NCBI RefSeq assembly: GCF_014302995.1
Contig: NZ_CP060295.1
Coordinates: forward strand, 2,356,001-2,420,000
Source of the DNA: Variovorax sp. PAMC26660
GTDB lineage: Bacteria; Pseudomonadota; Gammaproteobacteria; Burkholderiales; Burkholderiaceae_C
Reading direction: 5' to 3'
DNA length: 64,000 nucleotides
Under the pieces are notes generated by a model. That model saw only the letters and a list, made by a program, of their open reading frames with translations, was not told where the DNA came from and ran no database searches. How positions within the stretch are numbered: position 1 is the first letter of the stretch; each line of letters begins with the position of its first letter. This document shows, piece by piece, positions 3,015 to 23,175 of this stretch. Made by a program: the position numbers and the translations under genes.

Positions 3015-3428
3015 TCAAGCCGGTCCGGCTGGTCTCCATTTCCCGAGGGTCCGCTCCCACCGATAGACACGCCGTCCGATCTTCATCACACGCCCCTGTT
3101 CTGGTGACTGCGATGGAAAGTTGACCTGTGCAGCCCATGCTGCAGCAGAGGTCCGCATGCCGGCCGCGCCCACAGCCCCCAGGAGGGATGTAGCGGAGGA
3201 ACGTGCAGCGATGCGCCAGGTGGAAGCACCGGAGGCCAGGATGATCCGACTCCCGACAGCTTCAGCCCGCGCCACAGCAGCGGCGGCGCCGGTTCCGCTA
3301 GCGTACGCAGCTCCTGCGCCCGCCGCATACAGCGCGAGACGAGCGGCACCAGACGCATCGTTGTAGCGCCGATGCGGGGGTAACAGGGCTGCGAATGGGC
3401 CTGTGCCAAGGGGGTTAGCTGCAAACAT
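3015..3428 (-). CDS. Small hypothetical protein at end of tail operon
   Basis: A 137-residue Ala/Gly-rich protein starting MFAANPLGTGPF and ending with a basic, aromatic tail (RRVYRWERTLGKW). I do not recognise a family. It is probably real: its ATG follows the stop of the DUF4376-like chaperone by 2 bp, it runs in the same direction as the tail operon, and the C-terminal segment looks like a compact conserved end. It is the last gene of the element. Possible roles are a fibre accessory or a superinfection or immunity factor, but there is no direct evidence for either. Confidence 0.5.
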   Translation of the reverse strand: MFAANPLGTGPFAALLPPHRRYNDASGAARLALYAAGAGAAYASGTGAAAAVARAEAVGSRIILASGASTWRIAARSSATSLLGAVGAAGMRTSAAAWAAQVNFPSQSPEQGRVMKIGRRVYRWERTLGKWRPAGPA

Positions 3429-3430
3429 AC

Positions 3431-3919
3431 CTACCCCGGCCAGCCCGTCGTGACGTCATAGGTGTCTAGGTCGGCTGCGGTCAAGGTGTCGATGGCGGCG
3501 TGATGCCCGCGCTCGGCCGTGAAGCACGCCTGCACATGCCGGGCGACCGCGCTGGCCACCTCGGTGATCTGCTCGATGGACAGGGTGACCCACCCGCTGT
3601 CGGCCTTGAAATCGACGCTCTGGATGCCGCTGGTCTGGGCATTCACGATGACCGAGGCGATTCGGTCCTGATCGGACTTGCCGGTGAGAACGCGGATGCC
3701 GGTCAGCGTGATGCCGCCCGTTTCGCACTGCCAGCGCTTCGCTGTCGCGGCATCCTTCAGCGCCGCCCGGCGCTGCTCAAGTGTCGGCCCAGGAGGCTTC
3801 TGCGGAACGTTGCCCGGAATGGCGCACCAGTCGAGAAAGCGCTGGTATGCAGGGCAGTCTTCGACGATGGGAATCCAAGTTCCGTCGAGGTCGATATGGG
3901 TGTCATGCTTGATGTACAT
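3431..3919 (-). CDS. Tail fibre assembly protein, DUF4376-like
   Basis: A 162-residue protein with a C-terminal half typical of DUF4376: EQRRAALKDAATAKRW, then GIRVLTGKSDQDRI, a central VDFKADSGWVTLS and a helix VARHVQACFTAE. DUF4376 proteins sit next to phage tail fibres and are thought to help them fold or trimerise. The start at 3919 overlaps the stop of the upstream fibre gene (ATGA), which indicates translational coupling and a 1:1 fibre-chaperone pairing. Confidence 0.75.
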   Translation of the reverse strand: MYIKHDTHIDLDGTWIPIVEDCPAYQRFLDWCAIPGNVPQKPPGPTLEQRRAALKDAATAKRWQCETGGITLTGIRVLTGKSDQDRIASVIVNAQTSGIQSVDFKADSGWVTLSIEQITEVASAVARHVQACFTAERGHHAAIDTLTAADLDTYDVTTGWPG

Positions 3920-5052
3920 CAGAGCCTCGCGTCTGCGGTGTAGTGGAGCGTCATGCAACTGGCCACTGGCGGGGACGTGGCGACTTGAATCGAAACAAAG
4001 TTCGGAGCGATGTACGGGGTTCCAAAGCCGATAGCCGCGAAACTCCCGCCCACCGATTCGTCATAGATTGATCCTACGGCGCCGGTGGCGGGGTTGTAGA
4101 CCGTGAACGCCGGCGTCGTCCACATCGCCGGAGTGAAGTCGATGGAGAACACCGCGTAGTTGCCGCCCGGCGTATATGCCGCTGGGGTGATTTCTCGCCC
4201 GATCTGCGTCACAGTGCCCGGCGCCGCGCCTTGGTAGCTAGTGCGGAAATACTCCCGGCACTCCCACCAGTCTTCGAGGGGCAGCTTGTTCTCGTAGATC
4301 GTTGGGATCGTGCCGGGCTCGAACTGCACGTTGGTCAGCGTGCCGGTGCTGAACTCGACCGTTAGGTTGGCCGCAGCAGCGACGCTGGCCGCCGCCACCA
4401 TGTTGGAGGCATATGCGCCAGTGCTGATACGCCCCTTTGCAGTCCCTGTCCAGCTCATGATGTAGTTGCCGCCGTCGATCTTGCGGCCGTGGACCACCTG
4501 CTGCAACGTGCCTGCGGTGATCGTGATCGTGGTGAGGTTGCCGACCTTGGCGAAGGTATAGGTACAGCCGCCGGCACCGGCCTTCCATCCGTCGTGTCCA
4601 TACTTCCCGGCCGCAAGCACGACGACGCCCGTCTTCGCCTCCTGGTTGACCACGAATCGACCGTTGATCAGCAGGTTGCGATAGTTGATCGTTCCGATCG
4701 CCAGGGCGTTGCGCCAGTCCTGCTGCAACTGATCGTTGTTGGGTGCGAGCACCGTCAGCGAAACCTGTTTGAAGCCGGCCGCGAAATCGACCAGCGCGTC
4801 GGCGTTGCTGGAGCCAATCACCGTTGTGCGCGTCAGCGTATTGATGGCGCTGTAGGTGGCGCGCCCATATTCGTACTGCCCACTGGGGCGCCCCAACGGG
4901 TCCACCGACTGGATCAGGTAGTGGCAGGTCGAGCCGATGGCAAGCGCTGCGGCGAAACGGCGATAGCTCGCCACCGCGCCGTCGAGCGCCATCGAGCCCA
5001 CCCCCGTGGAGACGGACGTCTCCAGAATCCGGTTCTCGAAGATGTTTGCCAT
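3919..5052 (-). CDS. Tail fibre / receptor-binding protein
   Basis: A 377-residue protein. Residues 1-110 form a conserved phage adaptor region (ENRILETSVSTGVGSMALDG, then GRATYSAINTLTRTTVIGSSNA). The middle carries the fibre motif NLLINGRFVVNQEA followed by a beta-rich stretch typical of trimeric receptor-binding heads. The C-terminus is beta-rich, with no chaperone-release motif visible. ATG at 5052 is preferred over an upstream TTG. This is the likely target-recognition subunit of the particle. In tailocins this is the most variable gene and sets the killing spectrum. Confidence 0.75.
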   Translation of the reverse strand: MANIFENRILETSVSTGVGSMALDGAVASYRRFAAALAIGSTCHYLIQSVDPLGRPSGQYEYGRATYSAINTLTRTTVIGSSNADALVDFAAGFKQVSLTVLAPNNDQLQQDWRNALAIGTINYRNLLINGRFVVNQEAKTGVVVLAAGKYGHDGWKAGAGGCTYTFAKVGNLTTITITAGTLQQVVHGRKIDGGNYIMSWTGTAKGRISTGAYASNMVAAASVAAAANLTVEFSTGTLTNVQFEPGTIPTIYENKLPLEDWWECREYFRTSYQGAAPGTVTQIGREITPAAYTPGGNYAVFSIDFTPAMWTTPAFTVYNPATGAVGSIYDESVGGSFAAIGFGTPYIAPNFVSIQVATSPPVASCMTLHYTADARL

Positions 5053-5054
5053 GC

Positions 5055-5507
5055 TCAAACCCCGTCGTCGTCGGTCACGAGCGTCAGCGTGGTGGAGTTC
5101 AGAAGGCGCGGCGTGTCGCCCCAGCCCACATTGAGATTCGGCGTCACCGTGCCGCGCATGTAGACCATGCCGGCGCCGGCCGCCAGTTCGCCCACGGTGA
5201 AGTGCGTCACGTTGCCGCCACCCACATTCGTGACCATGCCGGGAAACTCAACAGGAGCCACGGGCCGCACCACGTTGCCCACGATGCTCCAGCCACCCGC
5301 TGTGCGCATCACCTCGACGCGCGCGTACTCGGGGTATGCCAGCTCGGACACGGACTGCTTGCCTGCTGCGCCGGGGTTTCCGGTGTGCAGCGCCATGTAC
5401 AGGCGATCTTTAGGCGCGGCCGTCGCGTTGCTCGCGATGCCGGCGATGGCTGTCCCTTGAAAAATCAGCTTGGCCAGGGCGGCCGCGAAATCATTGCTCA
5501 TTGCCAT
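5055..5507 (-). CDS. Phage tail fibre-associated protein
   Basis: A 150-residue protein of a common siphophage family: KLIFQGTAIAGIA, then RLYMALHTGNPG, YARVEVMRT, VTHFTVGELAAGAGMVYMRG and a C-terminal LTLVTDDDGV. Homologues lie between the tip protein and the fibre in many transposable and lambdoid siphophages and are usually annotated as tail fibre or hypothetical proteins. A good Shine-Dalgarno (AAGGA) precedes ATG 5507. A structural role at the tip-fibre junction is inferred from position. Confidence 0.65.
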   Translation of the reverse strand: MAMSNDFAAALAKLIFQGTAIAGIASNATAAPKDRLYMALHTGNPGAAGKQSVSELAYPEYARVEVMRTAGGWSIVGNVVRPVAPVEFPGMVTNVGGGNVTHFTVGELAAGAGMVYMRGTVTPNLNVGWGDTPRLLNSTTLTLVTDDDGV

Positions 5508-5540: not shown

Positions 5541-6143
5541 TTAGTTGGGCCACACCACTGCGGCGATCTGCTCAGGCGTCTCGGCCGCCCACACCGCGTC
5601 CCGTAGCCGCTGGCGCATGCCTATGAGTTGCTGCGAAGCCGCCATGAAGACATTGACCGCTTCCAGAGTCTTCTCGCGCATCAGGGCTGGGTCGATGCCG
5701 CGTGATCGAGCCAATCCGTCGAGGAATGGCGTAGCCGAGGCCTGGTCGGTGCCCCATGCCAGCGCTTCCGATTGCTGGACGCTCCAAGTCAGACGCTCTT
5801 CCTCGGGGTAGCCGGCTGTCAGCGCTGCGGCCCCGCGTCGGAACGACTGGTCGATGGCCGCGATCTGGTCGGCTCGCAGCACGTCAAGCGTTCGGTGGTC
5901 GACCCATTGCTTGGTTGACCAGTCAAAGATATGGAAGGGGCTGGGCTGCACCGGCATTGGCACCCATGCATTGCCAATGCGATAAGCATTCAGCGGCGCT
6001 CGCTCGCGCAGGCACGTGCAGCCTTCGGGCACCAGGCCCTCGACATGCATGGTCAGGCCGCTTTGCAGGACCTGCCCATGCACATCGATCACTGTGAACG
6101 GAAATGGCGACCGTGGCGCCTCTTCGTTGAATGCGTCGCTCAT
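5541..6143 (-). CDS. Tail tip accessory or fibre assembly protein
   Basis: A 200-residue protein starting MSDAFNEEAPRSPFPF. The N-terminal 75 residues are beta-rich and end FDWSTKQWVDHRTLD, a Trp-containing linker like that of phage tail-assembly chaperones. The rest is helical and ends EQIAAVVWPN. The start overlaps the stop of the tip protein (ATGA). It may assist folding of the tip or first fibre; the assignment rests on position and on resemblance to DUF4376/tail fibre assembly proteins. Confidence 0.55.
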   Translation of the reverse strand: MSDAFNEEAPRSPFPFTVIDVHGQVLQSGLTMHVEGLVPEGCTCLRERAPLNAYRIGNAWVPMPVQPSPFHIFDWSTKQWVDHRTLDVLRADQIAAIDQSFRRGAAALTAGYPEEERLTWSVQQSEALAWGTDQASATPFLDGLARSRGIDPALMREKTLEAVNVFMAASQQLIGMRQRLRDAVWAAETPEQIAAVVWPN

Positions 6144-9100
6144 GGTCGTTTCTGTATGGAGAGCGACAAGACAACCCGCGCGTTCTTGTCGTTGGATGCC
6201 GAGATCGTGTGGTTGCCCGGACCTCTGTCGAAAGTCGAAATCATCGTGAGCGCTGGCGTGGTCGACGCAGGCATCGAGGCCATGCTGTTTTCGACCGCAA
6301 GAGATGCCTCCGGCACAGCATCTGTGAGGTAGCAAACCATGTTGGACACGCCTATGCGATAGCCGCCCGTGTGAAATGCCGTGGCAACGATCCGATGCAC
6401 CTGGCCGGTCGGGACGCTCACACCCAACGTCGCCGACCCGTTGCCCGATGCGACGAGTGAGGTGGAGACGGCACCACCTTGCACCTGGAGCGTGTCGATC
6501 ACGTCGATCTGGCTGATGGTCAACTTGTTGTTGTTGAGCCGAAAGCCCGGCCCCCACAGATCAAACGCGGCCTGGCCACCGGGCACGTAGTCCATAACCA
6601 GACCGCAGCCGTTCAGGGAGAAGTCCACGAACATCGCGCCGCTGGGATGCTGCGCAAGTGCCCAGCCCCAATTGGCATCGCGCCACTTACCAGCGCTGCG
6701 CATGTATCCCCAATTGCCCCCGCTTCCTCCGTTGATCGTGATGCGGCCGGCCGTGATGTCGCCGAGGTCCGCACTGAGCGCGGAAATGCTCGGCGTCCTG
6801 ATGCCGTAGGGCGTAATCTGAGTGCCGATGCCGCTGGGCGCGTAGTTGGAGAACACCGTCTGATAGACGCTCGCCTCGGCCGCCATTGGCGCGACCAGGA
6901 AGGCATGGCTGTCCGCATCCGTGGCGTACTTGATCAGGCGCATCAAGCCCTTAGCGGCATCGGGGGGCGCAGTGCCGAAGCAGCCGATGCGCTTGAACTG
7001 AGACAGCGTGCGCCCGCCCGCTCGGTCATTGTTGTTTTCGATGGCAAGGTCCGATGAGGAGCCCAGTGCAACGCCAATGCCATCGAACCACAGGATCTCG
7101 GCAACGATGCGAGAGCGCACTGCCCCCGAGTAGACGGAGCATTCGTAGCGCTTGGCAGCTTCAGCCGGGAACTCGGCCTGGATGAGCATGAAGCCCGGCT
7201 CCCAGGCACCGCCCGGATGATGCATGTCCAAGCCCTGCAGGCCGGTCGGGGTGTACTCGGGGAAGTACTCGGGCATCGCCAGGAACTCGTAAGAGTCGCC
7301 ATTGAGGTTGATGTCGCCGACCCAACCGGTGGGAATCTTGACCGTGCCCGACGCGACAACGCGATCCACGAAGGTCGAGTTGACCAGCAGGTTGCTTCCC
7401 AGTCCAACGTTGATCTCGCGCGCGGAAATGGTCCCGGCCCTGATCTTCTCGCCCGTGATCTCGTCGCCCCTGATGTGCGTGCCGTAGATCTGCTCGGCGT
7501 CGATCATGCGGGCCTTCAGTGTGCCGTCCAGGAACATGTTCCCCGCAAAGCCGAACGAGGCGACGCCGTCGATGCTGCCGAAGACCACCGGGTACTTGAC
7601 CTTGCCGTCAGCGCCCTCCGTCGCCCAGGCGAACTTATCGGCCAGCACGACAAAGTCGCTCTGTTGGCCGTCGTTGTTCATGATGAAGCCGCTGGCCTTG
7701 CCGTTCGCCGTGAGGCGCACGCCATAGCGCAGCTTCAGCGCGCCGGTCTCTTCCGCTCGGACGTTCGCTTCAGTAGCGATGGCCCCCTCGACGCCGTTCA
7801 CCCGCACAGCAAGGGTCTGCCGTGCGGTCGCTTCCGCTTCGACGGCGGTGATCCGTGCCGTGGTCTCGGTCTGCACGGCCGCCACGGTGCCGACGTCCGA
7901 GGACTCTGCGGTGTAGCCGGTGGCAGGCAGGCGTCCCGCCTCGGCCTTCACATAGCGCACGGAAATCACGCCGGGCGCGACAAAACCCGCCCATTCGAAG
8001 AACGCCCGTGCAGTCGCGGTGCCGGCGGGCGCCTGCGATTCAAGGGCGTTTTGTATCCGGCGCGCCGCGTCATTGGAAAACTCGTGTTGCGCAAACTGCG
8101 GGCCAAGGTCCACACGCAGAACGGTATCGACGGCATCGCGATACTCGATGCCGAAGCGGCAAGCGCCCGACGCGGAGGTGAAACGCGAGTCGCCCGTGAC
8201 GGCATACCAGGCGTTCACGCCAGCCTTGAAGGCCTTGCTCGTGATGCGACCGGCTAAGTTTGGAGGTGCTGCCAGCACGGCCACACGGCCGAACTCGGAA
8301 TCCGCCGTGACCCAGCCGGCGACGTTGCCGGTCCAGTCCTTTAGATCGAACTCGAAGCCGCCGTTGAAAAGGAGGTTGGCACGGGTGTAGCCGACCGCGC
8401 GGGCAACGACCAGCTCGATCTCCTGGGCGAGTTGCTCATCTCCTTCCGTGATCAGCCTTTCGACACGCGAGATGGACGTGCCACGCTGCATCGCCTCGAT
8501 CAACAACGCGTCGGTCTGGCGGCTCCCGATGTCCATCAGATTGGCAATGGCCTCGTCCAGGCCTTCTGTCAGCTCGTCAATGGCTTCGTCAATGCCCGGC
8601 AGCGTGGTCAGTACCTTGTAGCCAGGCGCCCCTCGGTTGCCTGCGGTATCGATGGCACTGATCCAGTAGAGATAGTTGCCTGGCGTGGCCTGCGTGTGAG
8701 CGTAGCCCAGCGCATTGACCACGGTCAGAACAACCGCCTCCGAGAAGATGTTCCCGACGCGCACTTCATAACCATGCAGCGGCTGCGTCGTGCGGCACTC
8801 AGGCCACTGCAGCTCGACCTGATCTCGCCGGGCTTCGCCTGTCACCACGGGCTGTGCGGGTGGCAGGATCTGGATGGCGGTTGAGATCGGCGCCGACCAT
8901 CGACCCGTGGTGTCGTTGTGCGAGGCCCACACCTTCACGATGCCAGCTTGCAGCCAACCGATGTTGGCCACGGTAGTTCGCCCCGAGAACACGTCTGCGG
9001 CGGTTTCCCATTCGGCGCCAATGCGCAATTCCGTCACGTTCAAGTCGAGCAGATCCAGGCCAGTCGGCTCCTGCCAGCGCGCAAACACCCCGGTGAGTTC

Positions 9101-11062: not shown

Positions 11063-11466
11063 GCTGCCACCCCCGTCGTCAAAGGCAAGAATTGCAGGCG
11101 GTCCTTGCCGGGCGCCACGATGTTCGAGCCCGTGCAAACGCCAAAGCTGTACCCCGAAACGCGCCCGATGCGCCCGCCACTGCGTGCCAGCACCACATCG
11201 CCACGTTGCGCCAATCGCCCAGGCAGGGACTGCCCCAGAAGAGCCGTGGCGATCGCCTCGAAGCCGCCAGCGGCACGCACATGGCGCAACGCCGTCAGCA
11301 ACCTTTTCGGCGCCAGCGCGCCACCCTGCGCACGCAGTGGCTCCAACGGATCGGTCCCGCGCCGTTCACGCACCCAATCCGCCGCGATGGTTGCGCAGTC
11401 GTGTTCGAAGTAAGCGAAGCCTGTGTGGCGTCGCGCGTCGATGAAAGTGTCGAGATCAATGTTCAT
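11050..11466 (-). CDS. DUF6950/NlpC-like tail tip protein
   Basis: A 138-residue protein beginning MNIDLDTFIDARRHTGFAYF. The segment FEHDCATIAADWVRERRG carries the His-Asp-Cys arrangement typical of the phage NlpC/P60-like DUF6950 family; the cysteine is a candidate nucleophile. The later RLAQRGDVVLAR and SYSFGVCTGSNI match the family's beta core. In siphophages this gene sits just before the tip protein, and its product is thought to process or plug the tip or cut peptidoglycan during entry. The ATGA overlap with the upstream tail gene supports the start. Confidence 0.7.
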   Translation of the reverse strand: MNIDLDTFIDARRHTGFAYFEHDCATIAADWVRERRGTDPLEPLRAQGGALAPKRLLTALRHVRAAGGFEAIATALLGQSLPGRLAQRGDVVLARSGGRIGRVSGYSFGVCTGSNIVAPGKDRLQFLPLTTGVAAWRV

Positions 11467-15438: not shown

Positions 15439-15472
15439 GTCTGTATGGTCCGTTTGAGAGAAAGAAAAAATA

Positions 15473-15493
15473 AGGCCGACATCTGCCGGCCCC
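15473..15493 (-). terminator. Hairpin repeat copy 1, terminator-like, before tape measure
   Basis: A 21-bp element whose minus strand contains GGCCG, an 8-nt loop and CGGCC, followed directly by a T-rich run (TTATTTTTTCTTT), so it looks like an intrinsic terminator or attenuator. It separates the tail chaperone genes from the tape measure. An identical 21-mer lies at 17874-17894 and a variant at 19427-19447. Confidence 0.6.
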
Positions 15494-15527
15494 ATGCTTC
15501 TTCGATGGCCGTGGGCCCGCGCTGTCG

Positions 15528-15905
15528 CTAGACGTTCAGCACCGCGATGCCTTCGTCTTCCATCACCTGCAGCTGCAGGAAAACTTCACGCTGCCGCGCA
15601 CGCGGAATGCCCAGGCGCCGCATCGCCACGTCGACCGCGCCGAAGTCGAGCCCCTGGAACCACGCGCCCGCCGCCCCCGCGACGACCCGCCACTGCGTTC
15701 GGCAGGCATGGAACACCTCGAATGCTTCCTGGTGTTCCGGCCATAGCTCGAAAGGTGGCGGGCCGCCGCCGTTGGCTGTCGAAGAGACGAGCTTCTTCGG
15801 GTCGAGACCGAGCGACGCGCACTGGCTGCGGAGATCGTCGTCCAGCTCGTCGTGGACGCGATGCTCTGCTCCGAGCACAAGGCGCGCGGCGCCTCTCAGT
15901 TTTTT
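15528..15905 (-). CDS. DUF1799 tail chaperone part (GT), made by -1 frameshift
   Basis: The frame encodes a DUF1799-type product: PPPFELWPEHQEAFEVFHAC, TQWRVVAGAAGAW, then GLDFGAVDVAMRRLGIPR and LQLQVMEDEGIAVLNV. DUF1799 is the T partner of phage tail-assembly chaperones. I see no good independent start codon with a ribosome site. Instead the frame joins the upstream gene at a slippery A AAA AAC (15905-15899, minus strand) that overlaps its last codons, so it is probably made as a G-T fusion, as in phage lambda. The fusion product would span 16246 down to 15528 and recruit tube subunits to the tape measure. Confidence 0.75.
   Translation of the reverse strand, partial: KKLRGAARLVLGAEHRVHDELDDDLRSQCASLGLDPKKLVSSTANGGGPPPFELWPEHQEAFEVFHACRTQWRVVAGAAGAWFQGLDFGAVDVAMRRLGIPRARQREVFLQLQVMEDEGIAVLNV
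15880..15905 (-). promoter_or_regulatory. Programmed -1 ribosomal frameshift signal
   Basis: Reading the minus strand, the heptamer A AAA AAC (15905-15899) sits in the correct phase (GTA AAA AAC then TGA). After a 4-nt spacer comes a perfect 6-bp hairpin, AGGCGC-CGC-GCGCCT (15894-15880). Slipping back one base continues into KLRGAARLVLGAEH and the DUF1799 frame. Both canonical parts of a bacterial/phage -1 signal are present. Confidence 0.8.
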
Positions 15906-16246
15906 ACCGCGGCCGGGTAGGCATGCTCGAAGTAGCTGTAGGCAATGGCGGCTTCGAAGCCGGTCCATTCCTCCACCGCTGCGGCGCGGTTCTCGGCCGT
16001 GCAGATGTAGGGCGCACCGTCGTCGCCGTCCAGCTCCTTCCAGTCGGCCAGCACCATGTCGAGCAGGTCCTTGTCGGTCAGGGTGCGGGCTTCGAGGCGC
16101 GATTGCAGCGTGTCGTTCTCGCTCTTGGTCAGGCGCTTGAAGACGGCGCTGAAGCGCACCTCCTCGACCTGGCCGTCGCCGGGCACACGCATCAGCACCG
16201 GCGCGACGAAGGTCGGCTTGACGGCGATCTTGAGTTTCTGGGGCAT
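15896..16246 (-). CDS. Tail assembly chaperone (G-like)
   Basis: A 116-residue protein, MPQKLKIAVKPTFVAPVL, with RFSAVFKRLTKSENDTL and a helical TDKDLLDMVLADWKEL motif typical of siphophage tail-assembly chaperones located between the tube protein and tape measure. It wraps the tape measure during tail assembly and is absent from finished tails. Its end contains the -1 slippery site that extends a minority of chains into DUF1799. Translation stops normally at TGA 15896-15898. The upstream neighbour is the tube protein, 37 bp away. Confidence 0.8.
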   Translation of the reverse strand: MPQKLKIAVKPTFVAPVLMRVPGDGQVEEVRFSAVFKRLTKSENDTLQSRLEARTLTDKDLLDMVLADWKELDGDDGAPYICTAENRAAAVEEWTGFEAAIAYSYFEHAYPAAVKN

Positions 16247-16283
16247 CTCTGTCTGTTCCTGTGGATGTGTGTGGGAATGCGGC

Positions 16284-17213: not shown

Positions 17214-17283
17214 GTCGGCGTTCTCCGTTGGTGGTGGTTGGGTTGTCGAAAGAAAGAAAAAACGAAAGATCTGCTCGCGGCAG

Positions 17284-17763
17284 TCAGAGGTAGCGCCAGG
17301 TCCGCAACTGCAGTGCAACGCCGTGACAGCGCACACCGCAAAAAGTGACGAGGCCGGTGCCGTCGACCTGCACGCCGTCGGTGCGCTTGTCGTCGGTGAG
17401 CGGGCCGGAGGCACATGCGCCGCCGAAGGTGGGGTCGGCGCGCACGGCGTCGCGGATGTCTTCGACAAGGGCGTCGAACACGCGCTCCGAAGCGGCGGCG
17501 TCGTCGAGCGCGAGATAGCCTTGCACGGTCCAGGTGTCGACGCTCATCGTGCGGCCGCTGTTGACGCTGCGCTCTTCGGTGGCGGCGCGGCGCAGCCACC
17601 AGCCACGCAGTTGCTGGCCACCGGCCGGCAGGTCGTAGAGGTAGAGCGCGCGCAGCGCGACTTCGTCGACCAGGGAACGCTCGCGGTCGTGAACGCGGCC
17701 GATCTGCGGCACGGTGTTCAGCGTTTGCACGATGGCGCTGCGAAGGGTGTCGAGACGGCTCAT
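17284..17763 (-). CDS. Tail terminator / completion protein
   Basis: A 159-residue protein, MSRLDTLRSAIVQTLNTVP, with an alpha/beta layout (WTVQGYLALDDAAASERVFDA and VEDIRDAVRADPTFGG) and a C-terminal strand VALQLRTWRYL. Proteins of this size directly upstream of the tube protein are usually the tail terminator (gpU type), which caps the tube at the end where a head would attach. In a tailocin it would cap the free end. Function is inferred from position and fold pattern; there is no certain family match. Confidence 0.6.
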   Translation of the reverse strand: MSRLDTLRSAIVQTLNTVPQIGRVHDRERSLVDEVALRALYLYDLPAGGQQLRGWWLRRAATEERSVNSGRTMSVDTWTVQGYLALDDAAASERVFDALVEDIRDAVRADPTFGGACASGPLTDDKRTDGVQVDGTGLVTFCGVRCHGVALQLRTWRYL

Positions 17764-17873
17764 GCCTGGGCTCCGTTCAGTGTGTGTGAGGACCGGCGCT
17801 TGCTGTTGGAGAAGTACATCGATCGCTTCGTTGGTTGGTGTATGAACTGTCGCGGCGAGGGCCCGAATGGCTG

Positions 17874-17894
17874 AGGCCGACATCTGCCGGCCCC
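17874..17894 (-). repeat. Hairpin repeat copy 2, lysis/tail boundary
   Basis: Identical to the 21-mer at 15473-15493 and capable of the same GGCCG/CGGCC stem. It lies just after the holin-like gene and before the tail terminator gene. No T-run follows on the minus strand here. The 9-mer CCCGAATGG directly beside it (17862-17870) recurs at 19394-19402 near copy 3. Confidence 0.65.
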
Positions 17895-17899
17895 TCGCA

Positions 17900-18169
17900 T
17901 CAATTGACGCCGGGCCCGTTGCGAAACCACTGCTTGACGGCCTCGGCGAGCAGCGCCGTGCCGATGGCCATCGCGCCGCCCGATGCGGCGCCGAACACCG
18001 CGGCGCGCTGCTCGACCGAACGCAGCCGGCCGTCGAGTGCGTCGAAGCGGGTGTCGAAGCCGTCCATGCGGCGGTTCTGCCGGTCCTGTCCGTCCTTCAG
18101 GGCCTGCACCAGGCCGTGGATCTGGCCGAGCAGCAACAGCTCCTGCGTGCGTTCGTGGGGGTCGCTCAT
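17900..18169 (-). CDS. Holin-like protein with C-terminal TM segment
   Basis: An 89-residue protein starting MSDPHERTQELLLLGQIHGL. A helical, Gln/Asp/Arg-rich region with heptad character (residues 15-60, including MDGFDTRFDALDGRLRSVEQ) is followed by one hydrophobic segment, AVFGAASGGAMAIGTALLAE, and a short basic end. This is the topology of XhlA-like phage lysis proteins. Such a membrane protein would help release or activate the SAR endolysin. The start overlaps the Rz stop (ATGA). A structural or regulatory role cannot be excluded. Confidence 0.55.
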   Translation of the reverse strand: MSDPHERTQELLLLGQIHGLVQALKDGQDRQNRRMDGFDTRFDALDGRLRSVEQRAAVFGAASGGAMAIGTALLAEAVKQWFRNGPGVN

Positions 18170-18819
18170 GGGGCGGGTCTTTCTGTAAGGAACTCGATCA
18201 GCGCGCGGTGCCGGAGCCGGTCTGCGGCGCATGACCTGGCGTTGATGTCGTGGTTGGTCCAGGCGTCGTCGACCGTGAGGCCGGCATCAGCAGCACAGGC
18301 TTCGCTGGAGGTGTCAGCAAGTCCGCAGGCACCTGCGGGTGTGTCGGTGCCCGCAAGGGCGCTGTTCCACAGCCAGACAGCAGCAAGGCTGAGGCGATGA
18401 GGGCTGCCGACAGCGTCGCGCTGTGCGTCGCCAGGCGGCGCAGCATCCGCATGCGGTCCGGGCGCTGCAGCCCGCGCAGGACCGGCAGGCCGCTGAGCGC
18501 GGCGATCAGGAACAGCAGGAGGAAGGACAAGAGAAACGCGCTGACGTAGATCATGGGACGGGCCTTCGAGGGAGAGGTAGCTGGCTTGCAGGGCGCTCGC
18601 GCCGAGCTGGTACTGCGCCGATGCGGCGCGACCGCGCTCGTACTCGGCCTGCAGGTCTTGCGCGAACTGCGTTGCGCGCTGCGCTTCCTTCTGCTGCCAG
18701 TCGGCGCGCTCTTTCATGCGGCCGGCGTCGTGGATCGCGAGGCCGCAAACCGCGAGCAGCAACACCGTCAGGACGACGGCGATCAGGCCGGCCCAGGCCT
18801 TGCCCATGAGGAGGTTCAT
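18166..18819 (-). CDS. Rz-like inner-membrane spanin
   Basis: A 217-residue protein beginning MNLLMGKAWAGLIAVV with one N-terminal membrane anchor, a charged coiled coil (MKERADWQQKEAQRATQFAQ to about residue 75) and a periplasmic C-terminal domain with three Cys residues (SLAAVWLWNSALAGTDTPAG, then CAADRLRHRALIEFL). This is i-spanin topology; it bridges to the outer-membrane lipoprotein Rz1 and fuses the membranes at lysis. It is longer than many Rz proteins. The ATGA overlaps with the endolysin stop and the next start support both ends. Confidence 0.7.
   Translation of the reverse strand: MNLLMGKAWAGLIAVVLTVLLLAVCGLAIHDAGRMKERADWQQKEAQRATQFAQDLQAEYERGRAASAQYQLGASALQASYLSLEGPSHDLRQRVSLVLPPAVPDRRAQRPAGPARAAAPGPHADAAPPGDAQRDAVGSPHRLSLAAVWLWNSALAGTDTPAGACGLADTSSEACAADAGLTVDDAWTNHDINARSCAADRLRHRALIEFLTERPAP
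18198..18452 (-). CDS. Rz1-like outer-membrane spanin lipoprotein, embedded in Rz
   Basis: An alternate-frame gene lying entirely inside the Rz-like gene. It has a signal sequence with lipobox LLLSGC, followed by a Pro-rich mature part (HPQVPADLLTPPAKPVLLMP), the hallmark of Rz1. The open frame extends up to 18554 with an additional hydrophobic stretch; ATG 18452 (MRMLRRLATH) is chosen because it gives a normal lipoprotein signal. Overlapping Rz/Rz1 coding is a known phage arrangement. Confidence 0.7.
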   Translation of the reverse strand: MRMLRRLATHSATLSAALIASALLLSGCGTAPLRAPTHPQVPADLLTPPAKPVLLMPASRSTTPGPTTTSTPGHAPQTGSGTAR

Positions 18820-19391
18820 GGCGCGTTCCCCATGCACTGCGCGTGCAGCTTGAGGCGGTCTTTCCAGATGCCGGCACAGGTCTTGTTGCCAGGCGCCGAG
18901 CAGTCGGTCTTGCCCACGTACTTCCAGCCGAGAATGGCGTTGCACGCGCCCGCGTAGTCACCGGCGTTGAGCCGCTGCACCAGCACCGACGTGCGGCCCT
19001 TCTGGCCGCCGGTGCAGAAGTTGAACGCGCCGATGTTGTAGGCCAGGCTCACGTACGCGTCGTACTCGTGCTGGTGCAGCGGCACCTTCACGCATTGCTT
19101 GAGTTCGCTCTCGTAGGTCTGCACGTCGCGCAATGCGCGCTGCAACGCGGGCACGGGCGTGGTGGTGTCGCCCATGCGCACACCGCCGGTGGTGCCGAAG
19201 CCGATGGTCGGCACGGCCGTGCCATGCACCGGGTCGGGGTAGGCCTTGTCGCTGTAGCCCTCGCGCGCAACGATGCCGATCAGCCCCGCCGCGCTGAGTG
19301 CGAGCACGGCCAGCAATTGCCGCGGCGCCTGGCCCCGCTCACGCGTGCGCCGCCGGTTAAAAAGAACGGTTCGAAAAGTGTCTTTGCCCAT
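18816..19391 (-). CDS. SAR-type endolysin, glycoside hydrolase family 24
   Basis: A 191-residue lysozyme. A basic N-terminus is followed by a weakly hydrophobic segment (LLAVLALSAAGLIGIVA) directly before the catalytic glutamate, as in signal-arrest-release endolysins. The triad reads E44 (REGYSDKAYPD), D53 and T62 (VPTIGFGTT). The C-terminal half carries YDAYVSLAYNIGAF and two Cys pairs. It hydrolyses peptidoglycan to release particles from the producing cell. ATG 19391 has no clear ribosome site, so the true start could be a little downstream. It is the first gene of the lysis-tail transcription unit. Confidence 0.85.
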   Translation of the reverse strand: MGKDTFRTVLFNRRRTRERGQAPRQLLAVLALSAAGLIGIVAREGYSDKAYPDPVHGTAVPTIGFGTTGGVRMGDTTTPVPALQRALRDVQTYESELKQCVKVPLHQHEYDAYVSLAYNIGAFNFCTGGQKGRTSVLVQRLNAGDYAGACNAILGWKYVGKTDCSAPGNKTCAGIWKDRLKLHAQCMGNAP

Positions 19392-19407: not shown

Positions 19408-19426
19408 CGAGGGGCTCAAAAGACTG

Positions 19427-19447
19427 AGGCCGACATGAGCCGGCCCC
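19427..19447 (-). repeat. Hairpin repeat copy 3, repressor/lysis boundary
   Basis: Matches copies 1 and 2 except in the loop, where ATGAG replaces ATCTG; the GGCCG/CGGCC stem is kept. It lies between the repressor stop and the endolysin start. Next to it are a perfect 8-bp-arm hairpin (19456-19474) behind the repressor and a CCCGA/TCGGG dyad (19394-19407). Confidence 0.55.
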
Positions 19448-19498: not shown

Positions 19499-20221
19499 TC
19501 AGATTTCGCCGCCGTGCCAGACGACCCGGCCGCTGATGTGCAGCTCCGACGCCTGGTCGGCGCTCAGCACCTGCGGCTTGTACGCGGGGTTGTAGCTGAT
19601 GATCTGCAACCCGCCGGTGGAGAAGTCGCGCTGCAGCACCTTCACGTAGTCGTGGCCGTCGAGCTGGATGACGTACACGCCGTCCTGGTCGAGCGACTTG
19701 GTGGCGGTGTCGACCAGCAGGATGTCGCCGTTGTTGATCTTGTCGGCCATCGAGTCGCCGCGCGCGTGGACGATGCGCGCATGCGCCGGCTTCACACCCT
19801 TGCGCGCCATCCATGAACGGCTGAACGCGAAGCGGCCCATGTGTTCCTGCGAACCGTTGATGGCGCCGTTGCCGGCGCTGACGCGCACGTCGAGCAACTC
19901 GACCAGCACGAAGACCTCGTCGTCCAGCCCGCTCGACAACTGGCTCGGCGGGTTGGCGGACTGAAACGGGTTGAGCTCGGAAGGATCGACCCCCAGCGCC
20001 AGCGCCATCACGTACAGCTGCTCGAGGCTGGCATCGCTCACGCCGCGCTCGATGCGGCCCACCGTATTGAAGTGCAGGCCGCTGCGCTGGGCGAGGTCAT
20101 CGATGGTGAGCCCCTTCTGCTTGCGCAGATCGCGCACCCGCGCGCCTTGCGCGAGGGCCAGCTCGCCGACGCGAGCCTTCACTTGGGTGTCGTCGGGTGG
20201 AGTGTTGATTTGCGACGTCAC
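19499..20221 (-). CDS. Phage repressor, HTH plus S24 peptidase (CI/LexA-like)
   Basis: A 240-residue repressor. Residues about 20-78 form an XRE helix-turn-helix (VRDLRKQKGLTIDDLAQRSG, then NTVGRIERG). The C-terminal half is an S24 self-cleaving domain with Ser157 in RGDSMADKINNGDILL, Lys194 in DYVKVLQ and a candidate Ala116-Gly117 cleavage site. RecA-stimulated self-cleavage would switch on the element after DNA damage. An ATG at 20260 lies upstream of the deduced transcription start, so the GTG at 20221 is preferred. It is divergent from the early operon. Confidence 0.85.
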   Translation of the reverse strand: MTSQINTPPDDTQVKARVGELALAQGARVRDLRKQKGLTIDDLAQRSGLHFNTVGRIERGVSDASLEQLYVMALALGVDPSELNPFQSANPPSQLSSGLDDEVFVLVELLDVRVSAGNGAINGSQEHMGRFAFSRSWMARKGVKPAHARIVHARGDSMADKINNGDILLVDTATKSLDQDGVYVIQLDGHDYVKVLQRDFSTGGLQIISYNPAYKPQVLSADQASELHISGRVVWHGGEI

Positions 20222-20234
20222 GATAACTTTGATT

Positions 20235-20250
20235 TGTGCGAACGCGCACA
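20235..20250. promoter_or_regulatory. Candidate repressor operator palindrome
   Basis: TGTGCG-AACG-CGCACA has perfect 6-bp arms and overlaps the start region of the repressor's own promoter. The half-site TTTGTGYG (here 20233-20240) recurs at 20344-20351, and a related copy in reverse lies at 20369-20376, flanking the early promoter -10. Confidence 0.55.
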
Positions 20251-20278
20251 TCCTAGACATATAGAGGTCTTTTTACAA
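20250..20278 (-). promoter_or_regulatory. Repressor promoter
   Basis: On the minus strand TTGTAA (20278-20273), a 17-bp spacer and TAGGAT (20255-20250) form a plausible sigma70 promoter. Initiation near 20243 would place the GTG 20221 start about 20 nt into the transcript. Confidence 0.45.
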
Positions 20279-20329
20279 CCCGCTGTATGTCGAAGAACGT
20301 GTAAATGTTGGTTTTCATGTTTCTCTTGA

Positions 20330-20357
20330 TTGTGAAAACCTTATTTGTGTGCATAAT
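20330..20357 (+). promoter_or_regulatory. Early operon promoter
   Basis: TTGTGA (20330-20335), a 16-bp spacer and CATAAT (20352-20357) give a sigma70-like promoter reading into the Ner-like gene. Inverted half-sites (TTTGTGT at 20344-20350, ACACAAA at 20369-20375) flank the -10, as expected for repressor or Ner control. Confidence 0.5.
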
Positions 20358-20385
20358 CAGAGCCATCAACACAAAACAAGATATT

Positions 20386-20634
20386 TTGACGAATTGGCAC
20401 CCCACTCAGGTTAAAGAAGCACTGGAGATGAGTGGTACCAACCTGTCCAAGTTGGCAAAAGAACACAAATACGCGCATATCAACGAAGTTCTGAACCGTC
20501 CGCGGGTTGCAAAGGTTGCACCCCTCACCGGGCAAGCCAGTGAACCGAGCAGTGCCACAAGCGAGGAGAGATCTACCGTGAAAAAAGGCTCAGTCAAAAC
20601 CGAAGGCCCCGCGCGCCGGGCAGGAGGCGCGTGA
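20386..20634 (+). CDS. Ner-like DNA-binding protein
   Basis: An 82-residue protein. With the TTG start at 20386 it begins MTNWHPTQVKEALEMSGTNL, the diagnostic start of Mu Ner/Nlp proteins (Trp-His-Pro then two helices), and continues SKLAKEHKYAHINEVLNRP, the recognition helix region. A longer frame back to 20305 would add a hydrophobic leader overlapping the promoter and is rejected. In Mu, Ner turns down early and repressor transcription during lytic growth. Here it would fine-tune the switch. The tail (STVKKGSVKTEGPARRAGGA) is basic. Its stop overlaps the next start by one base. Confidence 0.75.
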   Translation: MTNWHPTQVKEALEMSGTNLSKLAKEHKYAHINEVLNRPRVAKVAPLTGQASEPSSATSEERSTVKKGSVKTEGPARRAGGA

Positions 20635-21035
20635 TGGAAAACACAACGACATCCGAATGGTTCGTCGCCAAGGCGCTGACGGCGCTGGCAGACCGCCGCG
20701 CCGAAGCGGCACAGGGCGAAACGACTGCGCCCACGGCCGCACCCGACGCGGTCGTGCGCACCGCGGACCCTTTCGCCACCCGCCTGTGGAACCTGCTGCG
20801 CATTCGCCGCGCGCTCACGGCCGACGAAGCCGCGGCCCTGCTGCTGGCCGATACCGACGACGACCTCGCGCTGGGCCGCCGCCAGGCCGGCGCGCTGATG
20901 CTGTCCTGGTCGCGGCAATGCCCGCAGGCCGTGCGTGTCGACGCCCGGCGCGTGGACGGCCTGAAGCGCTACGCGCTGTTGCGCGACATCGGCGCCACGC
21001 CGCCAGTGCCACTGACATCGCGTGGAGGTGTTTGA
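20634..21035 (+). CDS. Early-operon protein of unknown function (133 aa)
   Basis: A 133-residue soluble protein, MENTTTSEWFVAKALTALAD, not recognised. The middle (PFATRLWNLLRIRRALTADE to ALLLADTDDDLALGRRQAGA) reads like a winged-helix: helices, a short charged turn, then VDARRVDGLKRYALLRD resembling a wing and strand. A strong AGGAGG site sits 6 bp before ATG 20634. It occupies the position where Mu-like phages carry the transposase A gene but is far too short and unrelated. DNA binding is a guess. Confidence 0.65.
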   Translation: MENTTTSEWFVAKALTALADRRAEAAQGETTAPTAAPDAVVRTADPFATRLWNLLRIRRALTADEAAALLLADTDDDLALGRRQAGALMLSWSRQCPQAVRVDARRVDGLKRYALLRDIGATPPVPLTSRGGV

Positions 21036-21283
21036 TGACCAGCGCGCCTGCACCGTGCCCCTCTTATATGAGCGAGCCCTGGTTCGCCTTGCTCCGCAAC
21101 GCCTGCATCGAACGCCGGCGCTCCGAGGTCGCAGCGCAGTTGCACCTGAGCCCCGCCGCCGTGAGCCAGGTGCTCAACGGCAGCGGCAAGTACGGCGCCG
21201 GCAAGGCCCGCACCGACCGCATCGCTCGCCGGGTGCTCGACACCTTCGGCAGCCCCGCAACGAACGAGAAGGCCGACGCATGA
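21035..21283 (+). CDS. Small helix-turn-helix protein
   Basis: An 82-residue protein with an HTH: CIERRRSEVAAQLHLSPAAV followed by SQVLNGSGKYGAG, a typical second-helix, turn and recognition-helix pattern (AAVSQVLNG) as in XRE/CI and Mu-type early regulators. Its start overlaps the previous stop (TGATG) and its stop overlaps the next start (ATGA), so it is translated as part of the early operon. Likely a regulator; the target is unknown. Confidence 0.7.
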   Translation: MTSAPAPCPSYMSEPWFALLRNACIERRRSEVAAQLHLSPAAVSQVLNGSGKYGAGKARTDRIARRVLDTFGSPATNEKADA

Positions 21284-21687
21284 ACACGACATCCGATTCC
21301 CAACTGGCAGGCCAGGTGCAACGCGCCGTCGCCACGCATCTCGAAGCGCACGAGGCCGCATCCGCGAAGGAGCTCGAAGGCATGCTGGCCGCGTGCGTCG
21401 ATGGCTACCAGCCCGAGGCCGGTCGCGCTGCGCTGCGGCAGCAGTTGGCCAAACTGGCCGACTGCGGACACGTCCATCGCGTGACCGTCGGCGGCCAGCC
21501 GCGCTGGAAGCAGGGCCCCGGCCCGCTGCCCGCGCGCATCGCGGCGGCGCGCCAGGTGCTGCGACTCGATACCAGCGTCTACACGCCCGAAACCACCACG
21601 GTCGTGCGCCCCGGCGCGATGGACTTCGCCCGCATCCCGAGCCTGCTGCTCGGCCACCGCAGCGGCTACTGGGGCACTTCGCGATGA
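21280..21687 (+). CDS. Early-operon protein of unknown function (135 aa)
   Basis: A 135-residue protein starting MNTTSDSQLAGQVQRAVATH. Residues 20-75 look like a winged-helix (AASAKELEGMLAACVDGY, then AALRQQLAKLADCGHVHRVTVGG and QPRWKQGPG), the pattern of phage replication or regulatory wHTH proteins. The C-terminus SLLLGHRSGYWGTSR is short and aromatic. No family recognised with certainty. Coupled by ATGA at both ends. Confidence 0.6.
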   Translation: MNTTSDSQLAGQVQRAVATHLEAHEAASAKELEGMLAACVDGYQPEAGRAALRQQLAKLADCGHVHRVTVGGQPRWKQGPGPLPARIAAARQVLRLDTSVYTPETTTVVRPGAMDFARIPSLLLGHRSGYWGTSR

Positions 21688-22082
21688 GCAGCGGCACGCC
21701 CTCCATCACCGCCGCCCGGGTTCTGGCCGAACTGCAAACGCGCCTGGGCCGCGACAACGGCATCCACGTGCGCGACCTCGTCGCGCGCATCACAGGCCAG
21801 ACAACACCGGCTCCGGCGCTGGAGCGCCGCGTGCGCGAGTTCGTCTCGGCGCTGCGGCTGCAGGGCGAGCAGATCTGCGGCAAGCCCGACACCGGCTACT
21901 TCATGGCCGCCAGCGCCGCCGAGCTGGACGAGACCTGCCGCTACCTGCGCGGCCGCGCCGTCTCCGGCCTGCTGATCGAAAGCCGCATGCGCCAGGTCTC
22001 CATGCCCGCGCTGCTCGGGCAGCTCGCGCTTTCCGACAGCAGCAGCAGCAGCACCAACCCCACCGACACCGTCAACGCCTGA
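21684..22082 (+). CDS. Early-operon protein of unknown function (132 aa)
   Basis: A 132-residue protein, MSSGTPSITAARVLAELQTR. The segment RDNGIHVRDLVARITGQ followed by LERRVREFVSALRLQGEQIC and KPDTGYFMAAS looks like a winged-helix domain with a Gly-Tyr-Phe wing, as found in small phage regulators. A Ser-rich tail (SDSSSSSTNPTDT) follows. Unknown function; it ends 11 bp before the DUF3164 gene. Confidence 0.6.
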   Translation: MSSGTPSITAARVLAELQTRLGRDNGIHVRDLVARITGQTTPAPALERRVREFVSALRLQGEQICGKPDTGYFMAASAAELDETCRYLRGRAVSGLLIESRMRQVSMPALLGQLALSDSSSSSTNPTDTVNA

Positions 22083-22093
22083 GAGGACACACC

Positions 22094-22714
22094 ATGCAAG
22101 AAGCCATCGCACACCACCCCGGTTACTGGAAAGACGCCAACGACGCGCTGATCCCGGTGTCGAAGATCAAGCCGATCGACAAGGACCGCCACGCCGTCGT
22201 CAGCGAACTCTGCGAGCAGGCACGCAAGCAGAGCGCGGCGCTGATCGGCTTCAAGCTGGCGGCCATGAATGCGGTGCACGAGTTCATCGAGCGCAGCCTG
22301 GCGGCCTACGACGTGAAGAAGGGCGGCAAGAAGGGCAACGTCACGCTGCTGAGCTTCGACGGCAAACACAAGGTCGAGCGCCGCATGCAGGACACCGTGA
22401 CTTTCGACGAGCGACTGCAGGCCGCCAAGGCGCTGATCGACGAATGCATCCAGGGCTGGAGCAAAGGCAGCAACGCCAACATCAAGGTGCTGGTGAACGA
22501 CGCCTTCCAGGTCGACCAGCAAGGCAAGATCAGCACCGCCCGCGTGCTCGGCCTGCGCCGCCACGACATCGCCGACGAGAAGTGGCAGCAGGCCATGAAG
22601 GCGATCGGCGACAGCATGAAAGTCGCGAGCACCAAGCCGTACATCCGCTTCTACGAGCGCGACGACGCCACGGGCGAGTACGCGCCCATCAACCTCGACG
22701 TGGCGGCCGTATGA
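22094..22714 (+). CDS. DUF3164 protein (Mu-like phage early protein)
   Basis: A 206-residue protein starting MQEAIAHHPGYWKDANDALI and containing IKPIDKDRHAVVSELCEQA, a central LLSFDGKHKVERRMQDTVTF, and NIKVLVNDAFQVDQQGKIST with GLRRHDIADEKWQQAM. This matches DUF3164 (sulfate ABC transporter substrate-like misnomer in some annotations), a hallmark of transposable Mu-like phages. Its biochemical role is unknown. Presence without the transposase genes A and B shows the early operon descends from a Mu-like ancestor. The last four bases overlap the Mor start. Confidence 0.8.
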   Translation: MQEAIAHHPGYWKDANDALIPVSKIKPIDKDRHAVVSELCEQARKQSAALIGFKLAAMNAVHEFIERSLAAYDVKKGGKKGNVTLLSFDGKHKVERRMQDTVTFDERLQAAKALIDECIQGWSKGSNANIKVLVNDAFQVDQQGKISTARVLGLRRHDIADEKWQQAMKAIGDSMKVASTKPYIRFYERDDATGEYAPINLDVAAV

Positions 22715-23175
22715 ACACGCCGGAACTCATCGGCACGGCGCCGTTTTCGTCGCACGGCATTGCGCCGTCGCCCCCTCGAGGCAACGGCCTGCGGCAAGCC
22801 GTCACCGTGCTGGCCAACGAACTGCTGCCGCCCCGGCTGCGCGAGTTCGTGCGGCTGATCGGGCTGCCCGCCACCTTGCGCCTGATCGAGCGCTACGGCG
22901 GCCTGCGGATCTACATTCCGGCACACCCCGCGCCGGACCATCCGTTCGCGGGGCTGATCGGCTTCGACAAGCTGCGTGCGCTGAGCGCGGAGTACGCCAT
23001 CGACGGCACCGGCCTTCGCTTCGTGCTGCCGAAGGCGCAGCGTGCCTTCGACGCCATTCGCAACGAGCAGATCCGCACGGACTTCAGCTGCGGCAAGTCG
23101 GTGCGCGCGCTGGCGGCGGAGCACCACCTGGTCGAGAGGCAGGTGGCGCGCATCGTCGCGGACATCGCGTTCTGA
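22711..23175 (+). CDS. Mor-family transcription activator
   Basis: A 154-residue activator of the Mor/C family of Mu-like phages. The N-terminal dimer region has LPPRLREFVRLIGLPATLRL and IERYGGLRIYIP. The C-terminal HTH has RTDFSCGKSVRALAAEHHLV followed by ERQVARIVADI, the Mor pattern. In Mu it turns on the middle promoter, which leads to late gene expression. Here it is the last gene of the early operon and the obvious candidate activator of the lysis-tail unit. ATG 22711 overlaps the DUF3164 stop. Confidence 0.8.
   Translation: MNTPELIGTAPFSSHGIAPSPPRGNGLRQAVTVLANELLPPRLREFVRLIGLPATLRLIERYGGLRIYIPAHPAPDHPFAGLIGFDKLRALSAEYAIDGTGLRFVLPKAQRAFDAIRNEQIRTDFSCGKSVRALAAEHHLVERQVARIVADIAF

Follow-up and report, generated by a model that had tools for sequence, protein, structure and literature searches.

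A headless siphophage-type tail locus of Variovorax as a probable F-type tailocin of transposable-phage origin

Does a phage tail locus without a head mark a dying prophage, or has the bacterium kept it as an antibacterial particle? The question is raised by a ~20-kb element of Variovorax sp. PAMC26660, located at 3015-23175 of the 64-kb stretch of contig NZ_CP060295.1 that was analysed here (the window; all coordinates are positions in it, G000 is the window's own genome, and the other G and L numbers refer to compared genomes or records and loci). It encodes a complete non-contractile tail together with a lysis cassette, a CI repressor of the self-cleaving type and a small regulator operon whose last gene is that of a Mor-like activator. 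We estimate at about 0.8 the probability that the element arose by domestication of a transposable (Mu/B3-like) Comamonadaceae siphophage and is an F-type tailocin, with particle formation and killing predicted from its genes alone. Compared with its headed relatives, it has lost the head and packaging genes and MuA/MuB but retained the lysis, tail and regulator genes; it is kept at one chromosomal site across several species, and divergence in its tip and fibre modules far exceeds that of the remainder.

Headed relatives and the scar of the head module

By scanning 28 open reading frames (ORFs) in and around the element against PHROGs (E up to 0.01) and 20 against Pfam, we obtained matches to tail, lysis and regulator families, in line with the lysis genes and non-contractile tail under a repressor and an activator that a sequence-only reading had described, and no match to terminase, portal, capsid, integrase, transposase or sheath. 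The absence of terminase, portal, capsid, integrase and transposase genes claimed by that reading thus holds in these scans. Further, a tblastn search at 1e-3 with 19 head and transposition proteins of headed relatives (G263, G227 and G057) found none of them in 37 headless loci. These 37 loci comprise six genomes and 31 IMG/VR loci, of which L149 and L161 are fragments without the holin gene, and probably hold repeats (L127/G085 and L145/G089, while L159 and L161 are two pieces of one sample); the underlying IMG/VR scan gave 36 loci, namely those 31 with 90-98% tube identity, L154 (record G495) with 80%, and four with 34-60%. PHROGs labels of the 'head and packaging' class fell on two fibre-region ORFs: phrog_240 ('head protein') on 5055-5507, which Pfam instead assigns to the podophage fibre family Gp80, and phrog_17968 ('virion structural protein') on 3431-3919, a weak match (2e-4) ranking below the tail-fibre matches of that ORF. 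The weak PHROGs match of the tail terminator is classed under 'connector'. The combination of MuA/MuB and a head module by which a functional Mu-like transposable phage is recognized was not found in the element, nor were replication genes among its matches.

The gap between the holin-position gene and the terminator gene, 136 bp in the window and 100-192 bp in 35 of the 37 headless loci, measured 9,110-12,096 bp in four headed relatives (G263, G233, G495 and G487), where it holds the small terminase, TerL, portal, Mu F, capsid/protease and neck genes; MuA/MuB sit in the early gap of these relatives. G495, a 42.4-kb Mu-like phage record of IMG/VR (L167-L169), is collinear with the element over CI, the lysis genes, terminator, tube, G, GT, tape measure, tip, fibre genes and DUF3164, with identities of 80% for CI and tube, 67% for the terminator and 78-80% for the distal proteins, but only 27% for the lysozyme. 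G263, G233 and G487, which belong to other genera of the family, display the same headed plan. A 758-amino acid (aa) ORF of G495 (L168:3744-6020), located between Mu F and the capsid operon, had no match in the comparison set.

As a control, ten loci with 50-67% tube identity that lie outside the headless clade were inspected, and head genes were present in nine, either several of them (G263, G233, G487, G057, G227, G430 and G277) or the protease and capsid only (G123 and G360); the locus without them was G317 contig C4. The latter (L075/L076, ~7900-19350 of the joined slice), from another genus of the family, is a second and smaller headless locus with CI, Mor, terminator, tube (67%), G, GT, a 1647-aa tape measure and collagen-like fibre genes, and neither a head gene match nor a lysis gene was found among the ten ORFs scanned. 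Twenty more distant tube-match stretches in the family, kept outside all counts, were mostly unjudgeable by the BLAST set, with clear head genes in L177 only and a weak capsid match in L187.

The 136-bp scar itself aligned to the stretch preceding the capsid operon of G495 (80% over 61 bp, E 6e-11), and its second part to the start of the G495 terminator gene (72% over 57 bp); the element therefore lacks head genes of G495 on either side of a retained palindrome. The pre-capsid alignment was recovered in seven of eight headless junctions tried, the exception being L153. Three exact copies of the palindrome, GGCCGRCNNATGTCGGCCT, are present in the window (Table 1), preceding the lysis, terminator-tube and tape-measure operons, respectively; shuffled sequences yielded a mean of 0.09 occurrences at ≤2 mismatches and three copies in 0 of 100 shuffles, a test that covers recurrence only as the pattern was derived from these same copies. 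Three sites likewise precede the lysozyme gene, the capsid operon and the tape measure in G495, and G263 has near-copies before the lysozyme and capsid genes with none seen before the tape measure. By these alignments, the palindrome that precedes the capsid operon in headed G495 appears to have survived at the head-deletion scar, where it now precedes the tail operon.

The palindromes could be activator operators or RNA hairpins (terminators). We favour operators, because one palindrome precedes each late operon; a T-run follows the third copy. In a set of 28 copies, of which 22 are distinct, taken from 13 loci at several per locus, the two arms co-changed, with 97.7% of cells paired and five altered on both sides, which none of 500 shuffles reached, while the numbers of pairs changed on both sides (two; 33 of 500 shuffles) and of further pair types (four; 224 of 500) were unremarkable. 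A role as CI operators is disfavoured, as none lies at the boundary of CI and the early operon.

Carriers, insertion site and selection

The host genus is Variovorax, given that tube matches of 94-98% occurred in Variovorax sp. EL159, E3 and OK212, with a fourth of 59% in a Comamonas metagenome-assembled genome. Six of 101 Variovorax genomes (G000, G027, G044, G060, G085 and G089) have a tube of 93-100% identity, and a seventh, G057, carries a 62% tube inside a headed prophage. CI at 90-100% was found in exactly the same six (next best ≤32% among the matches listed), and so was Mor at 77-100% (sole other match 31%). The element is therefore carried whole or not at all in this set.

Five of the six carriers have the element at one shared site with the headless gene order conserved, which, together with the deepest-branch members described below, bears out the conservation at one site that the sequence-only reading had looked for in relatives. 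In G000, G089, G085 and G044, it is inserted between what we take to be a PepSY-type operon and a beta-propeller-like gene, usually followed by a presumed pbpC; in G060, the flanks are split over two contigs with both present, the PepSY side on C49 and the beta-propeller gene beside Mor on C73. The main site is empty in G027, whose element lies 286 kb away, and metagenome locus L144 shares the left flank of this second site. The beta-propeller flank gene was matched in 71 genomes, and the site state was judged on the best 30 genus loci, of which four were occupied, 15 empty (PepSY-side gene adjacent) and 11 showed neither within 1.5 kb. A headed copy at this site, which would have spoken for a dying prophage, was absent from these best 30 loci; headed relatives do exist, the nearest of them, G495, being a record without a known insertion site. 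Six IMG/VR contigs (L133, L142, L143, L153, L155 and L160) also reach the beta-propeller gene, and the L150 record (G498) reaches the PepSY operon. An inverted repeat at ~2800-2850, presumably Fur-box-like, adjoins the element before the PepSY operon and is present at empty sites too. The headed Mu-like prophage of G227 (L079/L080, 34861-37249 of the joined slice), in another genus, ends near homologues of the PepSY operon, which may reflect chance or a favoured insertion region.

A maximum-likelihood tree was built from six concatenated proteins (CI, holin, terminator, tube, G and GT; 1137 columns) of 30 rows, namely four headed and 26 headless ones, the latter including 20 of the 31 IMG/VR loci (the other 11 were left out as ten fragments and one probable repeat). 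The headless rows were split from the headed ones with a support of 100 and, with the root placed among the latter, would form one clade; several independent head losses are then unneeded. So rooted, the deepest headless branch consists of L150, L152 and L153 (support 98). This branch sits at the main site, as judged by one flank for L153 and by the other for the L150 record, and the headless state and the insertion thus appear to be older than that split.

Selection was assessed by the ratio of nonsynonymous to synonymous substitution rates (dN/dS), taken as medians over pairs with dS of 0.05-1.5 (others dropped) from 13-30 loci per gene (17-30 for CI, the lysis genes and the structural core). 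The ratios were 0.12 for tube and GT, 0.13 for holin, 0.14 for DUF3164, 0.16 for CI, 0.18 for G and lysozyme, 0.20 for both distal genes, 0.23 for terminator, 0.24 for tip and Mor, 0.25 for DUF6950 and 0.27 for e1; higher medians were obtained for e2 (0.43) and for the tape measure (0.435 at a median dS of 1.12, which is near saturation). The values of 0.12-0.25 indicate that CI, the lysis genes and the structural core are under purifying selection, as had been predicted for the lysis and tip genes; the same prediction for the tape measure finds weak evidence only.

In a comparison with flanking genes among four like-sited genomes (G000, G044, G085 and G089), the dS of CI, tube and GT (0.09-0.23) lay slightly below that of the flanks (0.18-0.44) and gave the same closest pair. 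The dS was 0.14-0.45 for terminator, lysozyme, G and Mor, 0.20-1.65 for the two distal genes and DUF6950, and 0.42-1.7 for tape measure, tip and the alignable part of the fibres, except one undefined value and one fibre value of 0.29 from the pair G089-G044, which share fibres. Vertical descent of the core with exchange of the target-recognition modules would give such a pattern.

The end of G reads A AAA AAC TGA in all 34 headless loci with a complete end (three of the 37 are without it), and the following -1 frame is open for exactly 123 codons in 31 of them, the exceptions being G060 (92), L143 (69) and L141 (72, at a contig end). The heptamer is also present in G495 and not in G487 or G233, while G263 was unscored. 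G and GT are thus predicted to be joined at a -1 programmed frameshift site, a mechanism established for the G-GT chaperone of lambda-like tails. In a CI motif alignment of 35 sequences, four of them from headed relatives, an Ala-Gly pair that we take to be the cleavage site was found in 34, and the presumed catalytic Ser and Lys of the S24 domain in all 35. S24-type repressors undergo RecA-dependent self-cleavage, with induction by DNA damage.

Gene content, proposed mechanism and alternatives

The element is organized into two divergent groups of genes (Table 1). From CI, the minus strand carries in order the lysozyme gene, an Rz-like spanin ORF, the holin-position gene, terminator, tube, G, GT, tape measure, two distal-tail genes, DUF6950, tip/J and four fibre-region genes, whereas the plus strand encodes a helix-turn-helix (HTH) regulator, four small proteins, DUF3164 and the Mor-like activator. 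The left end is approximate, since the ORF at 3015-3428 aligns to three relatives over only ~34 residues.

Table 1. Features of the Variovorax element, with positions in the 64-kb window
Feature	Position	Strand	Basis
Fibre-assembly/tail-fibre protein (DUF4376, tfa-like)	3431..3919	-	PF14301 1.7e-21; phrog_10508 tail fiber 1.7e-24
Distal tail fibre, variable between relatives	3919..5052	-	phrog_4492 4.7e-20; relatives align over first ~120-140 aa only
Fibre-linked protein (podophage GP4 fibre gp80 family)	5055..5507	-	PF23140 8.8e-12; phrog_240 label 'head protein'
Tail-fibre region protein, role unassigned	5541..6143	-	phrog_2618 2.1e-23
Tail tip/central fibre J	6140..10918	-	phrog_31 'central tail fiber J' 1.3e-48; phrog_5616 7.4e-53; PF09327 tail tip; weak match to baseplate hub pb3
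DUF6950, NlpC-like position	11050..11517	-	PF22262 1.3e-22
Distal tail/baseplate protein	11463..12086	-	phrog_2048 8e-32
Distal tail protein	12083..12706	-	phrog_1302 distal tail protein 1.1e-20
Tape measure, 905 aa	12703..15420	-	TMP_2 3.4e-46; phrog_24 1.4e-96
Palindrome site 3, before tape-measure operon	15473..15491	-	exact GGCCGRCNNATGTCGGCCT match; same place in headed G495
Tail chaperone T part (DUF1799), predicted -1 frameshift from G	15528..15878	-	PF08809 7.8e-23; heptamer A AAA AAC TGA
Tail chaperone G	15896..16246	-	phrog_569 2.1e-9
Tail tube, 309 aa	16284..17213	-	assigned by position and relatives
Tail terminator	17284..17763	-	phrog_4204 tail terminator, weak (0.0055); collinear with terminator of headed relatives
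Scar of lost head module, 136 bp between holin position and terminator	17764..17899	-	gap comparison with headed relatives
Palindrome site 2	17874..17892	-	aligns to palindrome before capsid operon of headed G495
Small protein, holin position	17900..18169	-	phrog_1103 5.3e-6, family listed as unknown function; 'holin' by position only
Rz-like spanin ORF, match covers 18187-18699	18166..18945	-	41.5% over 183 aa to Rz-like spanin of headed G263, E 1e-27
Phage lysozyme (endolysin)	18816..19316	-	PF00959 1.5e-27
Palindrome site 1, before lysis operon	19427..19445	-	GGCCGRCNNATGTCGGCCT match
CI repressor, S24 autoprotease domain	19499..20251	-	PF00717 9.9e-21; HTH_3; Ala-Gly, Ser, Lys conserved
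HTH regulator, early operon	20305..20634	+	phrog_769/925 weak
Early-operon small proteins: 20634-21035, 21068-21283 (Cro-like), 21280-21687, 21684-22082	20634..22082	+	several collinear in headed relatives
DUF3164 protein (Mu-like phage early gene)	22094..22714	+	PF11363 1.9e-76; 66% to Curvibacter phage TJ1
Mor-like late transcription activator	22711..23175	+	phrog_836 1.2e-25; PF08765 3e-8

The element has its own lysis cassette, in which lysozyme and spanin were assigned by matches and the holin by position only. Two ORFs, 18198-18554 and 18551-18961, overlap the spanin ORF in other frames with a PHROGs match for neither, and one ORF overlapping the Rz-like match (18166-18961 region) could encode an embedded Rz1-type partner. 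The non-contractile tail gene set is complete, with the tube lacking a PHROGs or Pfam match of its own; 22 of 36 aligned tube sequences matched phrog_290 ('minor tail protein'), the tube alignment had no match in NCBIfam, and comparison with solved structures gave nothing useful for the tube and baseplate proteins beyond the weak match of the tip. The gene that had been called NlpC-like is DUF6950; its position agrees with that label, but a peptidase activity is unsupported, as Cys41 is invariant in 14 of 14 aligned sequences with no invariant His. The tape measure, formerly counted as 911 residues, has 905 aa with the chosen start and 930 at most, and ranges over 738-905 aa in 28 complete headless copies. 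Those of headed relatives are longer (1178 aa in G495, or 839 from an inner start; 1026-2046 aa in eight others), and tails may therefore have shortened in the headless lineage. DUF3164 has no match, or a match to its first 16 residues only, in G085, L133, L136, L141, L142 and L160, all of which keep Mor; because of such copies, it seems dispensable to the presumed weapon.

With less confidence than in the tailocin itself, although still on the favourable side of even, we put forward a fuller history: the F-type tailocin would have been invented independently from a Mu/B3-like siphophage before several Variovorax species split, by loss of head genes on both sides of the capsid-operon site, with the head promoter region now driving the tail operon, the three palindromes forming an activator regulon that co-fires the lysis, tube and tip operons, and a headed sister phage surviving. 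In operation, DNA damage would activate RecA and CI would cleave itself; the early operon would then be transcribed and the Mor-like activator made, which, possibly by way of the three palindromes, would switch on the three late operons for lysis, for terminator-tube-G/GT and for tape measure-tip-fibres. Flexible tails without heads, ~135 nm long at ~0.15 nm per tape-measure residue, would assemble, the lysozyme, spanin and holin-like proteins would burst the producer cell, and the released particles would bind related bacteria via their variable fibres and depolarise or perforate the envelope.

Several observations weigh against the tailocin reading and its proposed mechanism. A single headless clade depends on rooting among the headed rows, and the tape-measure dS is so near saturation that its ratio is weak evidence of selection. 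G060, a draft of 420 contigs, has short GT and tip ORFs, and L143 has a short GT; G085 and several further loci lack all or nearly all of DUF3164; and the G027 element lies at a different site. For the palindromes, a symmetric operator is less easily reconciled than an RNA hairpin (terminator or attenuator) with the G-T apposition of 14 of the 22 distinct rows, and the headed G495 record, which has the palindromes, gave no match to Mor; we infer the link between Mor and these sites. The interrupted GT and tip of G060 (Variovorax sp. E3, L031/L032) could come from an assembly error or a dying copy.

Were the locus a dying Mu-like prophage that lost its head and transposase first, its tail genes would be unselected; the missing genes of a complete phage, the loss of DUF3164 in several copies and the short chaperone or tip ORFs of G060 and L143 agree with this, yet such broken ORFs were confined to these two loci. 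Decay is at odds with the dN/dS of CI, lysis and structural core genes, with a frameshift site retained in every locus that has a complete G end, with the headless state at one site across the deepest split, and with close CI, tube and Mor genes that co-occur in six of the 101 genomes and are absent from all others. Selection, all-or-none carriage and frameshift-site conservation led us to reject it as very unlikely, and conserved order, selection and the absence of headed copies at the site support the preference for a tailocin that the sequence-only reading had expressed.

The tails might instead serve DNA transfer by joining heads made elsewhere, from another prophage or a capsid-only satellite. 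The window's own genome does hold one phrog_38 TerL (C1:4699112-4700533) and a Mu F protein (C1:1198993-1199310), which shows that it has further phage-like regions, and the element retains terminator and spanin. However, three of the six carriers (G027, G044 and G089) had no match to phrog_38, the one terminase family sought; 40 kb around the G000 terminase contained no BLAST match at 1e-3 to head proteins of the headed relative or to element genes except one Cro-like gene; and the neck gene of headed relatives is lost from the element. We regard a tail donor as the least probable explanation. An unlikely but less remote one is a headless particle kept for a role other than kin killing, such as action on eukaryotes, adhesion or signalling, since the genomic data speak for conservation of the particle and not for its target, and Variovorax is known from plant roots, where it would have eukaryotic neighbours. 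Against such a role, no cargo or effector family was matched in the element by the PHROGs and Pfam scans, and known tailocins, whose specificity resides in the tail fibre (PMC12090994), have a lysis cassette, repressor control and fast-changing fibres as well. An F-type tailocin thus remains the reading that we prefer.

Comparison with known tailocins

Tailocins are R- or F-type, of which the latter resemble siphophage tails; the F-pyocin derives from a lambda-like phage, and R-type tailocins arose more than once, including from Mu in Pseudomonas syringae (PMC12090994). Besides F-pyocin and monocin, which the rhizoviticin paper names as the other F-type cases, rhizoviticin itself was described from Allorhizobium vitis (PMC10811719), and the earlier remark, by which F-type particles are hardly known beyond Pseudomonas and Listeria, comes close to the truth but misses this one case. 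So few being described, a new lineage from a different phage type would widen the kind. No title or abstract opening in our literature search reports this Variovorax/Comamonadaceae element, subscription papers being beyond its scope, so that absence in print is not established. While the tailocin kind is known, the phage source, the host genus and the regulatory site retained at the head scar appear new as far as that search shows. With the headed sister and the 37 headless loci, one can ask directly which parts a phage loses, keeps or re-wires on becoming a weapon, and how receptor-binding modules are exchanged amid vertical inheritance of the rest; if our interpretation is true, headed sister and headless element are a before-and-after pair for the birth of a tailocin.

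The B3/D3112-like (names that we presume to apply to related transposable phages) and Curvibacter TJ1-like transposable phages and G495 carry MuA/MuB and the whole head and packaging module, unlike the element. The F-type pyocins of P. aeruginosa share with it a non-contractile tail, lysis genes and the lack of a head, and have other regulators. BceTMilo of Burkholderia cenocepacia, a contractile tailocin, is also of Mu-like origin. Monocins belong to a Gram-positive host and a different phage lineage. Listeria monocins, also F-type, are likewise encoded by a headless siphophage-type tail locus (PMC10811719, PMC12090994). The proposed Mu-like phage origin is shared with the R-type tailocin of P. 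syringae (PMC12090994); both that tailocin and BceTMilo are contractile, whereas no sheath family was matched in the Variovorax locus. Rhizoviticin is likewise a headless tail with lysis genes and a LexA-family repressor that originated by head-gene loss, 22.7 kb in size versus ~20 kb, and its flexible tails and killing were demonstrated, whereas the Variovorax element is known from genes alone (PMC10811719). Rhizoviticin has a chimeric origin, replication genes and an integrase remnant at a tRNA gene (PMC10811719); the Variovorax element differs from it in deriving, by our reading, from a transposable phage with Mor and DUF3164 genes and in being shared by several species.

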